From Tetragenococcus halophilus subsp. halophilus DSM 20339 (lineage in GTDB: Bacteria; Bacillota; Bacilli; Lactobacillales; Enterococcaceae), in contig NZ_PXYA01000003.1 in NCBI RefSeq assembly GCF_003841405.1, positions 1 through 64,000 of the forward strand: a DNA stretch of 64,000 bases, read 5' to 3'. Under the pieces are notes generated by a model. It saw only the letters and a list, made by a program, of their open reading frames with translations, did not search any database and had not been told where the DNA came from. Below, piece after piece: positions 19,735 through 23,956 of this stretch (positions are counted from its first letter, which is position 1; each line of letters starts with the position of its first letter). Position numbers and translations under genes: made by a program.

Positions 19735-19776
19735 TTGATAACCATCAATTTCTTTTTCGTTTTTTTTAGCTACACT
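19735..19776 (+). promoter_or_regulatory. FNR/FLP box and promoter of the metal ATPase
   Basis: TTGATaaccATCAA (19735-19748) is a perfect FNR-type box. A -10 hexamer TACACT lies at 19771-19776, placing the box centre about 41.5 bp before the expected start site, the class-II activator position. There is no good -35, as expected for activator-dependent promoters. Confidence 0.82.
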
Positions 19777-19805
19777 GTAGTTGTTCAAAGAAAGGAGATG
19801 TAAAA

Positions 19806-21665
19806 ATGAAGCTACAACAGTGGATTATGCAGCATAAGAATCATTTGACATTGATTAATGGTCTATTGATTCTTTTGGCTGGTGTTTCAAAATTTTTATT
19901 CACATGGATATTCGGTTATCAGCTTGCCATGCTGATTGCTTCTGTGATTGGTATGCTACCAATTTTTCTACAAGCTTATCAAGCATTAAGGGTAAAAGTT
20001 ATCAGTATCGATTTATTAGTGAGTGTCGCCATTTTAGGCGCACTATTGATTGGTGAATATAATGAGTCAGCTATTGTCGCCTTTTTGTTTTTGTTTGGTA
20101 GTTTTTTAGAACAAAAAACGCTAGAGAAAACACGGACAGCCATTCACTCTTTAACTCAAATGGCCCCTAAAAGTGCGCTAAAGATCACAGACAATGGTCG
20201 CACAGAATCGGTTGACATTGATGATATTGATAAAGGAGATCATTTGTTAGTAAAAACAGACGCTCAAGTTCCTGTGGACGGTGTTATTGATGAAGGCGAG
20301 GGTTATTTAAATGAAGCCAGTGTAACCGGTGAATCGCAGCAAAGAAAAAAAGAAAAAGGCGACGATGTTTTTGCTGGAACTTTTTTAGATAATGGCACCT
20401 TAAAAATTGTCACAAAAAGAGTTGGCGAAGATACTACTTTTGGAAAGATTATCGAATTAGTGGAAGAAGCACAAGATAGTAAATCGAATGCAGAACGTTT
20501 TATCGATAAATTTGCCAAATATTACACACCAGCGGTCCTACTCTTAGCTTTTATTGTCGGGATTTTTTCTCAAGATGTTCGCTTAGCCATCACCATTTTA
20601 GTTTTAGGTTGTCCAGGCGCTTTAGTGATCGGTGTTCCTGTTTCAAATGTCGCAGGAATTGGAAGTGGTGCCAAAAGCGGCATTTTAATCAAAGGGGGCG
20701 AAGTGATCGACAAATTTAGCAAAGTAGATACTTTTGTCTTTGACAAAACAGGGACTTTAACCATGGGGAAACCCAGTGTGGCTGCCGTCAAAAATTATAC
20801 TGATAATTTCACTGAAAGCTTAAAAATCACTGCTAGCATTGAAAGAGAGTCCGATCATCCATTAGGTCAGGCAATTGTCGATTATGCGAACGTTTCTAGT
20901 TATGTTTCTGTTGAGCAAACCAACGTGGTTAAAGGTCAAGGTATTATAGCAACTTTATCCGATAAGAAGGTGTTGATTGGAAACCAGTCATTAATGGTAG
21001 ATCACCATGTCCCCCTCTCCAAATCTATCAAAAAAGACATTCATCAACTGCAATCTACGGGACATTCTTTAGTGATGGTTGCAATGAATGGTCGACTATC
21101 CTTATTAATAGGCATTAAAGATCAAATTCGGCCCGGTGCAAAAGAAACTCTTGCCCATTTAAAACAAACGGGCGTCAAAGAGCTCATCATGTTAACCGGC
21201 GACAACCAAGAGACTGCAGAAAATATTGCCCAAGAGCTAGGGATCACCAAAGTCTACGGCAACCTACTGCCAGAAAACAAGGCGGATTATATTCGTCAGT
21301 TACAAAAAGAGGGGCATCAAGTTGCTTTTGTCGGTGATGGCGTAAATGATAGTCCCTCCCTTGCTTTAAGTGATGTGGGAATAGCCATGGGCGGCGGAAC
21401 AGAAGTTGCAATTGAGACCTCTGATGTTGTTTTGATACAATCAAATTTCGAAAGAATCGCCAAAGCTTACCATCTTACGAAAAAAATCGCCCTTAACATG
21501 CAAGAAAATATTATGATTGCACTTGCCACTGTCTTATTGCTGCTTATTGGTTTAATTTTCGGCTATATTTATATGGCAAGTGGGATGTTTGTTCACGAAC
21601 TAAGTATTTTGATTGTCATTTTTAATGGGATGAGGCTCTTACTCGGTACGAAGAAAAAAGCATAA
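19806..21665 (+). CDS. P1B-type heavy-metal translocating ATPase with CPG motif
   Basis: A 619-residue membrane pump. Seen in order: four N-terminal helices with no HMA domain, actuator NEASVTGES (about 175), the transmembrane metal motif LVLGCPGALVIG (Cys269-Pro-Gly), phosphorylation site FDKTGTLT (Asp313), ERESDHPLGQAI (the HP motif of metal ATPases), LTGDNQE and GDGVNDSPSLALSDVG. The usual CPC, CPH or SPC is CPG here, so the metal cannot be assigned from subgroup rules; export of Zn, Fe or Cu are all possible. A stand-alone HMA protein is encoded just downstream. RBS AAAGGAG; FNR box upstream. Confidence 0.93.
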   Translation: MKLQQWIMQHKNHLTLINGLLILLAGVSKFLFTWIFGYQLAMLIASVIGMLPIFLQAYQALRVKVISIDLLVSVAILGALLIGEYNESAIVAFLFLFGSFLEQKTLEKTRTAIHSLTQMAPKSALKITDNGRTESVDIDDIDKGDHLLVKTDAQVPVDGVIDEGEGYLNEASVTGESQQRKKEKGDDVFAGTFLDNGTLKIVTKRVGEDTTFGKIIELVEEAQDSKSNAERFIDKFAKYYTPAVLLLAFIVGIFSQDVRLAITILVLGCPGALVIGVPVSNVAGIGSGAKSGILIKGGEVIDKFSKVDTFVFDKTGTLTMGKPSVAAVKNYTDNFTESLKITASIERESDHPLGQAIVDYANVSSYVSVEQTNVVKGQGIIATLSDKKVLIGNQSLMVDHHVPLSKSIKKDIHQLQSTGHSLVMVAMNGRLSLLIGIKDQIRPGAKETLAHLKQTGVKELIMLTGDNQETAENIAQELGITKVYGNLLPENKADYIRQLQKEGHQVAFVGDGVNDSPSLALSDVGIAMGGGTEVAIETSDVVLIQSNFERIAKAYHLTKKIALNMQENIMIALATVLLLLIGLIFGYIYMASGMFVHELSILIVIFNGMRLLLGTKKKA

Positions 21666-21668
21666 AAA

Positions 21669-21710
21669 TTGATAGCTATCAATTTTTTCTCTGACAATCT
21701 ATTTTAAACT
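21669..21710 (+). promoter_or_regulatory. FNR/FLP box and promoter of the HMA-ferritin-flp operon
   Basis: TTGATagctATCAA (21669-21682) with a -10 hexamer TAAACT at 21705-21710. The box-to-hexamer distance is identical to that at 19735, giving a class-II arrangement. It follows the ATPase stop by 4 nt. Confidence 0.82.
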
Positions 21711-21742
21711 AGCAATAGAAATAAAAAAGGAGGAATTTTATT

Positions 21743-21973
21743 ATGGAAAAAGTCATTCTTCAATTAGGAACATTAACTTGTCCTTCATGTATGCAAAAAA
21801 TAGAACAAGCAGTGAAAAAGGAAAACGGTGTAGAAAAAGTGAAGGTATTATTCAATGCAAGTAAGGTCAAAGTGGAGATCAATCCAGCTCTCACAAATGC
21901 CGAAGCGCTCAAAAAGACCATCGAAAAAGTCGGCTATAAAGTAGAAAACACAAAAACAAAGGAGCTTTCTTAA
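21743..21973 (+). CDS. HMA-domain metal-binding protein (metallochaperone)
   Basis: A 76-residue single-domain protein with the beta-alpha-beta-beta-alpha-beta HMA fold and the metal loop TLTCPSCMQKI (Cys13, Cys16). CopZ-like proteins hand a soft metal to P1B ATPases; here it may serve the ATPase that lacks its own HMA domain. RBS AAAGGAGG. The stop overlaps the next start by one base (TAATG), so translation is coupled to the ferritin-like gene. Confidence 0.92.
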   Translation: MEKVILQLGTLTCPSCMQKIEQAVKKENGVEKVKVLFNASKVKVEINPALTNAEALKKTIEKVGYKVENTKTKELS

Positions 21974-22515
21974 TGAGTCCAAAAGAAAAATATCAAGAAG
22001 AATTAAAACAAAGTGAAATCGATCATCATACACCAACTGCCGGTGCTTTGGTCGGTCACATCCTATCCAATCTTGTCATCCAACAAAACAAGTTAAGACA
22101 GCTGCTTTACTATGTAAAAGGCAGTGAACAAACTTTTGTGCAAGAAGTATTCTCTACAATCATCGACCAGGAAAGTCAATTATTTGACGAATTGAACCAT
22201 TTGATGTTAGATGAGGGAGAAGTGATCCCCACAACGACCGAAGAATTTACTCAATATAGTATGTTGGAAGAAAGCGGCCGTCTAAAATATGAACCAGTCA
22301 ATGATCGATTGATGGAAACTGTTCAAGACTTTGCTACGCAGCTGTTGTTCATTACTCGAGGAATTACCCTAGCAGAAAATGAAAATAAATGGGGGATCGC
22401 AGATTTCTTGAAAAAGTTAAATACTTGGATAAAACATCAAATCTTTGTCATCCAAAGTTATTTAGGGCATGAAGTCACTGAAGGTTTGGAAGAAGACGAA
22501 GATGACGACGAATAA
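21973..22515 (+). CDS. Ferritin/Dps-like protein with acidic tail
   Basis: 180 residues, mostly helical, with a pattern like a divergent Dps/ferritin four-helix bundle: GALVGHILSNLVIQQNKLRQLLYYVKGSEQTFVQEVFSTIIDQESQLFDELNHLML, then DEGEVIPTTTEEF, as in Dps after helix B, and a C-terminal helix pair. The canonical Dps ferroxidase pattern H-W...G...H is not preserved (YYVKGSE). The tail EEDEDDDE is strongly acidic and could bind metal. Function is inferred from fold resemblance and neighbours. Confidence 0.65.
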   Translation: MSPKEKYQEELKQSEIDHHTPTAGALVGHILSNLVIQQNKLRQLLYYVKGSEQTFVQEVFSTIIDQESQLFDELNHLMLDEGEVIPTTTEEFTQYSMLEESGRLKYEPVNDRLMETVQDFATQLLFITRGITLAENENKWGIADFLKKLNTWIKHQIFVIQSYLGHEVTEGLEEDEDDDE

Positions 22516-22527
22516 AAGAGGTTGATT

Positions 22528-23190
22528 ATGAGTCAAAAAGAACATTTATGTGTCACCTTAGTTCCCTTATTTAATCATTTGGATTGGGAAGATCAAAAAA
22601 AGATTCACCAGCTTGTTCGACATATTCCCTTTAAAAAAGGAGAAACCATTCTTTCTCCTTATGACGATCCACAGCTTGTAATTGTCGCCCGAGGTCTCTT
22701 AAAAGTTTATCAGCTTTCCCCCAGCGGCAAAGAACAATTGCTACGAGTAGTGGAACCTGGTGGCTATGAAGGAGAAAATGCCATATTTGGCGTTGAGAAT
22801 AGCAATCTTTTTGGTGAAGCTTTGCAAAATACAGAAGTCTGTCTATTAAAACAAAGTGACTTCCAAGCGCTTTTAACAGATTATCCGCAATTAAGTTTAA
22901 AACTTTTAACCATTAATGCCCAAAAAAATGCCAAAGTTGAAGAGCAGACTCAATTTCTCACGATGGAAAAAATTGAAGAACGGCTGGCTACCTATCTCTT
23001 AGATTTAGCGAAAGCTGAAGAAAGTTCTCAAGTAAAAATTCCTATGAAGATGAAAGAATTGGCTGCTTTTCTTGGAACCACCCCGGAAACATTATCGCGC
23101 AAATTAAAATCCTTGGAACGCGCACAATTGATTAAAAGAGAAAAACAAACCATTCAGCTTCTTGATTACGAAGGTTTAGAAGAAATTTAA
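22528..23190 (+). CDS. flp: Crp/Fnr-family regulator, FLP type
   Basis: 220 residues: cyclic-nucleotide-binding-like beta barrel (HIPFKKGETILSP... GLLKVYQLSPSGKEQLLRVVEPGGYEGENAIFG), long dimer helix, and a C-terminal winged helix with recognition helix TTPETLSRKLKSLE, which carries the E-x-x-S-R contacts of FNR. There are only two cysteines, Cys8 and Cys105. This matches FLP of Lactobacillus casei and FlpA/FlpB of Lactococcus, which switch by an intramolecular disulfide instead of an Fe-S cluster. The ATG at 22528 is preferred over the in-frame TTG at 22522. It ends the HMA-ferritin operon. Confidence 0.9.
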   Translation: MSQKEHLCVTLVPLFNHLDWEDQKKIHQLVRHIPFKKGETILSPYDDPQLVIVARGLLKVYQLSPSGKEQLLRVVEPGGYEGENAIFGVENSNLFGEALQNTEVCLLKQSDFQALLTDYPQLSLKLLTINAQKNAKVEEQTQFLTMEKIEERLATYLLDLAKAEESSQVKIPMKMKELAAFLGTTPETLSRKLKSLERAQLIKREKQTIQLLDYEGLEEI

Positions 23191-23317: not shown

Positions 23318-23332
23318 TTATAATAATTATAA
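23318..23332. promoter_or_regulatory. PerR box upstream of dps
   Basis: TTATAATAATTATAA is an exact match to the PerR consensus TTATAATNATTATAA, and the symmetry extends three more bases on each side. It contains TATAAT, so the repressor would cover the -10 region. Confidence 0.8.
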
Positions 23333-23426
23333 TCTGTCTTTCTTATCTTTATTAAAGGAGCGTGATTCTAGGAAATATTTCTTTGATTTATAGATCGCAG
23401 GTTAGGCGGAAGTCGTAAAGAATAGT

Positions 23427-23441
23427 TGATAACTATTATCA
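23427..23441. promoter_or_regulatory. Fur-like inverted repeat upstream of dps
   Basis: TGATAACTATTATCA matches the 7-1-7 Fur box TGATAATNATTATCA with one mismatch, 45 bp before the dps start. With flanking bases it reads TTGATAA-CTA-TTATCAA. The spacing differs from an FNR box. Confidence 0.55.
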
Positions 23442-23485
23442 ATTAGATGGTGTGTTTAATTTACAAAAAAGAGGAGGCATTTTCA

Positions 23486-23956
23486 ATGAAATTTGAAAAG
23501 ACAAAAGAAACATTAAACCAATTAGTAGCAGATTTAAGTCAGTTCGCGGCTGTTATCCATCAAACCCACTGGTACATGCGTGGACCAGAATTCTTAACAT
23601 TACATCCAATGATGGATGATTATATGGATGAAATTAACGATCAATTAGATGAAATTGCAGAACGTTTGGTTGCCTTAGATGGCTCGCCTTATTCCACCCT
23701 ACAAGAATTTGCGGATCACACTGGCATCAAAGATGAAGTTGGTACTTGGGATCGTTCGATGAGCGAACGATTAGAAACTTTGGTATCTGGCTATCGCTAT
23801 TTAGCAGACCTTTATCAAAAGGGAATTGAAATTTCTGGCGAAGAAGGCGATGATTCCACACAAGATATCTTTATTGCTTACAAAAGAGATATCGAAAAAA
23901 ATATATGGATGATTCAAGCTGAACTTGGCCATGCGCCAAATAATGACCCAGCATAG
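23486..23956 (+). CDS. dps: Dps-family ferritin, DNA protection during starvation
   Basis: A 156-residue dodecameric mini-ferritin that oxidises Fe(II) with peroxide and stores iron. The inter-subunit ferroxidase residues are visible in VIHQTHWYMRGPEFLTLHPMMDDYMDEINDQLDEIAERLVALDG (His and Asp/Glu at about 29-70). The ATG at 23486 follows GAGGAGG; upstream in-frame codons have no RBS. A perfect PerR box and a Fur-like box precede it, and a metal/redox operon lies upstream on the same strand. Confidence 0.95.
   Translation: MKFEKTKETLNQLVADLSQFAAVIHQTHWYMRGPEFLTLHPMMDDYMDEINDQLDEIAERLVALDGSPYSTLQEFADHTGIKDEVGTWDRSMSERLETLVSGYRYLADLYQKGIEISGEEGDDSTQDIFIAYKRDIEKNIWMIQAELGHAPNNDPA

Follow-up and report, generated by a model that had tools for sequence, protein, structure and literature searches.

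Known Flp systems and the Tetragenococcus locus

The flpA and flpB operons of Lactococcus lactis are reportedly arranged as orfX-orfY-flp, where we take orfX to encode an HMA domain protein and orfY a Dps protein, and L. lactis flp mutants are said to show zinc depletion and peroxide sensitivity. FLP of L. casei is reportedly an FNR-like regulator with a two-cysteine layout and a proposed regulatory switch, possibly with another operon context and another preferred site. The window analysed here, a stretch of 64,000 nucleotides of contig NZ_PXYA01000003.1 from Tetragenococcus halophilus subsp. halophilus DSM 20339 (genome size 2.6 Mb), contains a four-gene locus that is best explained as a Tetragenococcus version of the flp operon of lactic acid bacteria, encoding a CPG-type P1B ATPase, an HMA chaperone, a Dps-like protein and the Crp/Fnr-family regulator Flp. 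Lactococcal-type Flp regulators are poorly understood, and they gain here an exact and conserved arrangement of operator and promoter that is open to direct testing.

The locus widens a regulatory circuit previously described in Lactococcus. A regulon reconstruction for the Lactobacillales files the FlpA regulon under metal homeostasis in the part of the paper available (PMC3616900), and the circuit in the window is of the same kind as that regulon, as far as this part describes it, and as the L. lactis flp operons. On the L. lactis plasmid pA12-4, ATPase, HMA, Dps and Flp genes follow one another with two boxes in the same geometry as in the window, and the plasmid Dps matches MG1363 DpsA (1zs3) with an expectation value (E) of 6.9e-111. 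The gene order HMA-Dps-flp is common to plasmid and window, with protein identities of 55% for Flp, 51% for the HMA protein and 39% for the Dps-like protein across two different genera. For Tetragenococcus itself, a literature search returned nothing relevant, judged by title and the start of the abstract, among the matches listed.

Promoters of the E. coli FNR type offer another comparison. The FNR site is TTGAT-N4-ATCAA, and class-II promoters of this type resemble those of the window in the half-sites TTGAT/ATCAA and in a centre near -41.5, which for the window is predicted from the offset to the -10 hexamer; unlike FNR, Flp lacks the four-cysteine set of cluster ligands. The available text of PMC4505428 names FF-41.5 as a class-II FNR-dependent promoter.

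A conserved box-to-promoter spacing

The sequence TTGAT-N4-ATCAA occurs exactly twice in the window, both times on the forward strand, before the P1B ATPase gene and again before the HMA-dps-flp unit, as an earlier note on this DNA had reported. Box 1 (TTGATAACCATCAA, 19735-19748) precedes the ATPase gene (19806-21665, + strand), and box 2 (TTGATAGCTATCAA, 21669-21682) begins after a gap of 3 nucleotides from the ATPase stop codon and precedes the HMA gene (21743-21973, + strand); in relatives, too, boxes are kept before the ATPase and HMA genes. The -10 hexamers of the two predicted promoters, TACACT at 19771-19776 and TAAACT at 21705-21710 (both + strand), lie at a conserved offset of 36 from the box start. 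Each thus begins 29.5 bp past the box centre, which bears out the equal spacing claimed before. If transcription starts about 7 nucleotides past the -10 hexamer, the box centre would lie near -41.5.

Within the window, two exact boxes compare with 0.28 expected (at least two in 3 of 100 shuffles), and three occurrences of the box-plus-(-10) pattern with at most one mismatch compare with 0.63 expected (at least three in 5 of 100 shuffles). The window on its own is weak, suggestive evidence; conservation elsewhere is strong. Every exact box lying no more than 200 bases before a module gene was collected from 113 loci (L021-L053 and L071-L150), with no -10 hexamer required, which gave 46 sites, or 39 once identical promoters were removed, from 26 loci. 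At offset 36, 37 of the 39 non-redundant boxes have a TATAAT match of at least 4/6, against 13 of 39 at the best other offset in the 20-59 range. Conservation across the module promoters reaches 95% for T36, 100% for A37 and 97% for T41, and the box consensus leans towards CTTGAT-N4-ATCAATTTTTT, preceded by an A-rich stretch. These promoters as a group show no recognisable -35 element, the mean best match being 2.1/6 against 2.57 in shuffled spacers, a rough control.

The loci span Tetragenococcus, Enterococcus, Lacticaseibacillus, Companilactobacillus, a metagenome-assembled genome of the Clostridiaceae, and plasmids of L. lactis, Listeria innocua and Enterococcus faecium. Under relaxed rules (at most one mismatch) applied to 41 loci, 33 have flp within the stretch and 32 of these carry the site. 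In the same set, L081 was scored as lacking a site since its ATPase overruns the contig end, yet a box with a 5/6 -10 hexamer is present there. No site of this kind came from the 65 loci L086-L150, where most ATPases are of the CPC type. The host genome repeats the pattern: a -10 match of at least 4/6 stands at the offset in 4 of 4 module boxes of one scan and at both window boxes, and in 2 of 42 readings of the 21 exact boxes outside modules, taken on both strands. An order-wide scan for the geometry found a match in 194 of 295 genomes, a number that includes sites with no gene assigned and is not used as evidence.

These results support class-II geometry and regulation of the two units by the operon's own Flp, as the earlier note had argued, with the 37 of 39 boxes and the 32 of 33 flp loci carrying the case. 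We consider it likely that Flp activates its own module from class-II sites, a judgement that takes the full circuit, signal and output included, as one reading. Dimers of Flp would bind TTGAT-N4-ATCAA centred near -41.5 at the ATPase promoter and at the HMA-dps-flp promoter, and the bound protein would bring RNA polymerase to promoters with a -10 hexamer and no recognisable -35 element. Because the HMA-dps-flp promoter bears a class-II Flp box, flp would also activate itself, and the positive autoregulation proposed previously is probable in view of the conserved geometry before this unit. The signal would most likely be oxidation of Cys8/Cys105 or metal binding there, upon which the HMA protein and the ATPase would export a transition metal while the ferroxidase-less Dps would protect DNA.

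Several observations weigh against this account. Two of the 39 sites, the HMA promoters of L024 and L078, have no good -10 hexamer at offset 36, and the flp locus of Alloiococcus (L080) shows only sites with two mismatches. Conversely, three of the eight loci with no flp in the stretch carry the site (L160, L169 and L170); for L160 and L170, flp lies elsewhere in the genome (G014 and G011, respectively), and the genome of L169 (G057) falls outside that genome set. The loci behind the box counts share relationships, which makes these counts non-independent. In the window, the TTGATA of box 2 can score as a -35 element for a GACAAT -10 at 21693-21698 (9/12), in a promoter scan with 18 hits where 13.5 were expected. 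Finally, the proposed L. lactis FlpA motif is described as absent upstream of flpB in the accessible portion of PMC3547956. The TTGAT-N4-ATCAA box may help to settle this question of the flpB motif; the L. lactis view presented here is that of plasmid pA12-4.

Downstream of box 1, the sequence TACACTGTAGTTGT (19771-19784, from the -10 hexamer of the ATPase promoter onward), or a near variant of it, is common to several Tetragenococcus loci and to L046 and L047. A CopY-like reading of TACACTGTA, found after promoter 1, was rejected: its spacing misfits the cop box, and the sequence is absent from most of the 39 promoters.

The cysteines of Flp and its signal

The flp gene (22528-23190, + strand, ATG at 22528) encodes a protein of 220 amino acids with PF00027 and PF13545 above the gathering thresholds, that is, a cyclic-nucleotide-binding fold and a Crp-type helix-turn-helix. 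Its structure model has a predicted local distance difference test score (pLDDT) of 87 and a predicted template modelling score (pTM) of 0.58, and a Foldseek search with it retrieves chains of the CRP/FNR type, including GlxR and FNR, at E about 1e-16 with whole-chain template modelling scores of 0.40-0.59 among the 50 matches listed. The protein has exactly two cysteines, Cys8 and Cys105, in agreement with the earlier note. In the model, Cys8 begins the first helix and Cys105 lies within the strand 102-108.

This pair, with one cysteine near the N terminus and the other where the beta-roll ends, occurs in all 27 Flps of an alignment, the most distant at 33% identity. A second, overlapping sample gives the same picture: Cys8 and Cys105 are found in all 33 Flps examined (the window protein included, out of 42 Flp matches), as opposed to none of 26 other Crp/Fnr proteins drawn from 40 lower-scoring matches. 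Thiol-redox or metal sensing through Cys8/Cys105 is a plausible reading of this conservation, which by its nature does not separate a disulfide from metal ligation.

The alternative that survives best retains the same circuit and changes its signal. Instead of forming a disulfide, Flp would respond to metal bound at Cys8/Cys105, or to an iron-sulphur cluster held by non-cysteine ligands, and export would form a feedback on the exported metal. We hold this to be possible, with odds clearly short of even. It would suit an operon that encodes a heavy-metal ATPase, and in A. fischeri FNR the residue aligned with Cys105 is the cysteine in front of EIPYE, which we take to be a cluster ligand. Set against this, only two cysteines are conserved, no histidine is invariant or nearly so in an 11-row Flp alignment, and the precedent, L. 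casei FLP, is reportedly a disulfide-based switch. The question of what Flp senses, and which metal is involved, is an old one that is now easy to ask at these two promoters.

Published views differ as well. According to the part of PMC5039431 available, it is disputed whether FNR-like proteins of Gram-positive bacteria with two cysteines form a cluster: L. lactis FlpA is described with an oxygen-labile cluster that has non-cysteinyl ligands, which favours metal or cluster sensing, L. casei Flp might work cluster-free, and the C129S substitution in S. suis FlpS is without effect.

Direction of control and the protein that binds

Activation by Flp is favoured over a reading in which Flp represses both promoters, or acts in both directions, which we regard as unlikely. 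A site lying over the -35 region could block the polymerase, and the sequence gives no direction. The module promoters as a group nevertheless lack a recognisable -35 element, and the near-invariant spacing between box and -10 hexamer is expected of class-II activation and is not needed for repression.

Still less probable is that the boxes serve another Crp/Fnr protein of the cell. The host genome does code for a more distant Crp/Fnr paralogue (C2:657757, on the contig labelled C2) and for three further Flps, all of which may cross-bind. Co-occurrence speaks for Flp: among the 41 genomes covered by both protein searches, 23 have the CPG ATPase together with Flp, one has Flp alone (G008, 88% complete), none has the ATPase alone and 17 have neither. 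Presence was called at a best E of at most 2.6e-194 for the CPG ATPase (next genome, 1.8e-117) and of at most 1.8e-66 for Flp (next genome, 6.7e-28). Flp is thus tied to one ATPase subclade. The reader helix points the same way, since the window Flp reads ETLSR, the motif E--SR is shared by all 33 Flps examined and by only 2 of 26 other Crp/Fnr proteins, and A. fischeri FNR has ETISR at the aligned position.

The weakest alternative, in which box 2 would act as an A+T-rich terminator for the ATPase gene and box 1 would be a chance match, draws on a 10-bp A+T-rich hairpin round box 2 (-6.5 kcal/mol, z -1.77, with 14 of 200 shuffles folding as well), while no terminator was called there by a scan that demands three G-C pairs, which is beyond such a stem, and it was rejected as highly improbable because both sites are conserved with a fixed-offset -10 hexamer, even where the flanks fail to extend the stem.

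A CPG-type ATPase as the proposed output

The ATPase, of 619 amino acids, scores above the cut-off of the heavy-metal P1B models TIGR01525 and TIGR01512 and contains DKTGT. It has a CPG motif, whose Cys269 is the only cysteine of the protein, a HELS motif in the last helix, and no N-terminal metal-binding domain. C269, P270, G271, H597, E598 and S600 do not vary across an alignment of 10 homologues; some relatives carry HEGS in place of HELS. The free-standing HMA domain protein (76 amino acids), with a CPSC motif formed by Cys13 and Cys16, is chaperone-like.

In a tree of 74 ATPases, 43 CPG sequences form one group with a support of 93 (the tool's own mark is 95), separate from the SPC (4 rows) and CPC (25 rows) enzymes; this is a quick tree with long branches, built with 25 of 63 CPC ATPases. 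The P1B-4 Fe(II)/Co(II) exporters PmtA, PfeT, FrvA and CoaT resemble the window ATPase in the M4 motif, in an M6 motif of the HE-x-S type and in lacking an N-terminal metal-binding domain. They differ from it in the letters of both motifs and in tree position: the window enzyme and 42 companions of its group have CPG in place of the SPC of M4, and the M6 sequence of the window enzyme is HELS, not HEGxT or the HEGST of those exporters. Beside its four CPG-type ATPases, the host genome also holds a canonical SPC/HEGST P1B-4 enzyme of the PmtA/PfeT kind (C2:284676-286391). ATPases with SPC/HEGST are the kind described for Fe(II) exporters in the portions available of PMC7012047 and PMC8880997. 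Homology as it stands would leave the cargo of the CPG clade unassigned. A literature search found neither 'CPG motif' nor 'Cys-Pro-Gly' among the matches listed. The subclade of CPG ATPases is what is newest in the finding.

The Dps-like protein and the neighbouring canonical Dps

The third gene (21973-22515, + strand) encodes a Dps-like protein of 180 amino acids with an acidic tail, whose nearest solved relatives are L. lactis DpsA (1zs3; E 2e-31 over residues 4-179) and 1zuj. The ferroxidase columns, placed by reference to Listeria Dps, hold two histidines and three acidic ligands; canonical Dps rows read HH[ED]DE in 6 of 6 cases, and the window protein has L, Q, S, D and H, so that most ligands are gone. 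Of 19 Dps-like rows, none keeps the first histidine and one keeps the second. Because the protein lacks these ligands, metal storage by it is doubtful and would seem unlikely, and the 'ferritin' with a storage role described in the earlier note gives way to a DpsA-like protein without ferroxidase ligands. A 'ferritin' next to flp should not be presumed to store iron.

Downstream of flp lies a canonical Dps gene (23486-23956), preceded by PerR- and Fur-like boxes and by no Flp box, which further weakens the idea of storage within the Flp system. By the PerR and Fur consensus motifs, an exact PerR-type box (TTATAATAATTATAA) lies at 23318-23332 and a Fur-type 7-1-7 site with one mismatch at 23427-23441. 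Positions 23426-23442 had been considered as a third Flp box and fit this Fur-type site instead. In the window, the PerR pattern with at most two mismatches occurs 4 times against 2.64, which is near chance, and the Fur pattern 5 times against 1.07. The arrangement suggests separate peroxide and iron control of the canonical Dps, beside the Flp module.

Extent of control and mobile-type module copies

The earlier note spoke of a regulon; control of the operon's two units stands, and its scope narrows to four copies of one module with 12 promoters. A second copy of the operon on contig C1 has both boxes and an ATPase and Flp that are 78% and 83% identical. On C2 lie two further copies, which are rearranged and belong to another type; they contain canonical Dps, flp, HMA and ATPase genes (ATPase 59%, Flp 36-37%), with a box of its own before each gene, several of them with one mismatch. 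The exact box-plus-spacing pattern is found at 7 places in the genome, six in modules and one inside a gene. With at most one mismatch there are 41 places, against 7 in a reversed control: the 12 module promoters, 24 inside open frames of at least 80 codons, and 5 intergenic places at four sites (C1:247535, C1:365328/365356 on both strands, C1:743981 and C2:427437). No frame of at least 60 codons begins within 400 bases downstream of any of the five. A broad Flp regulon was therefore rejected, as the gene-preceding places with this geometry all fall within module copies.

On C2, the loci L052 and L053 (about 92-106 kb and 113-123 kb) are closely similar mobile-type Flp modules that are differently interrupted; their inserts resemble transposase and reverse-transcriptase genes by eye. 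This module, with its boxes, is also found on Listeria innocua and Enterococcus faecium plasmids. A wider interpretation, which we put forward tentatively and at less than even confidence, is that these loci represent a self-contained, partly plasmid-borne redox/metal module. In it, copies of one class-II promoter would let a two-cysteine FNR-like activator drive three products: a P1B ATPase of a distinct CPG/HE-x-S subclass whose cargo is unassigned, a free chaperone belonging to the module, and a Dps that binds DNA and is devoid of ferroxidase chemistry. The mobile form, with canonical Dps, would have an identically spaced box for each gene.

Two plasmids show further genes near such regulators. 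On Listeria innocua pLI47-1 (L232 1405-3325), a cupin gene and an ABC transporter with an annotated FetB (iron export) lie upstream of the Dps-Flp module; FetAB was rejected as an Flp target, since no box with the geometry stands before the cupin-fetAB genes. An Enterococcus lactis plasmid (L234 4986-6332) encodes a Flp relative of 45% identity followed by a 558-bp gene, near ribonucleotide reductase genes. Upstream of this gene lie a Flp box with one mismatch and a TATAAT at offset 36, and it is possibly another target of a Flp-type regulator.

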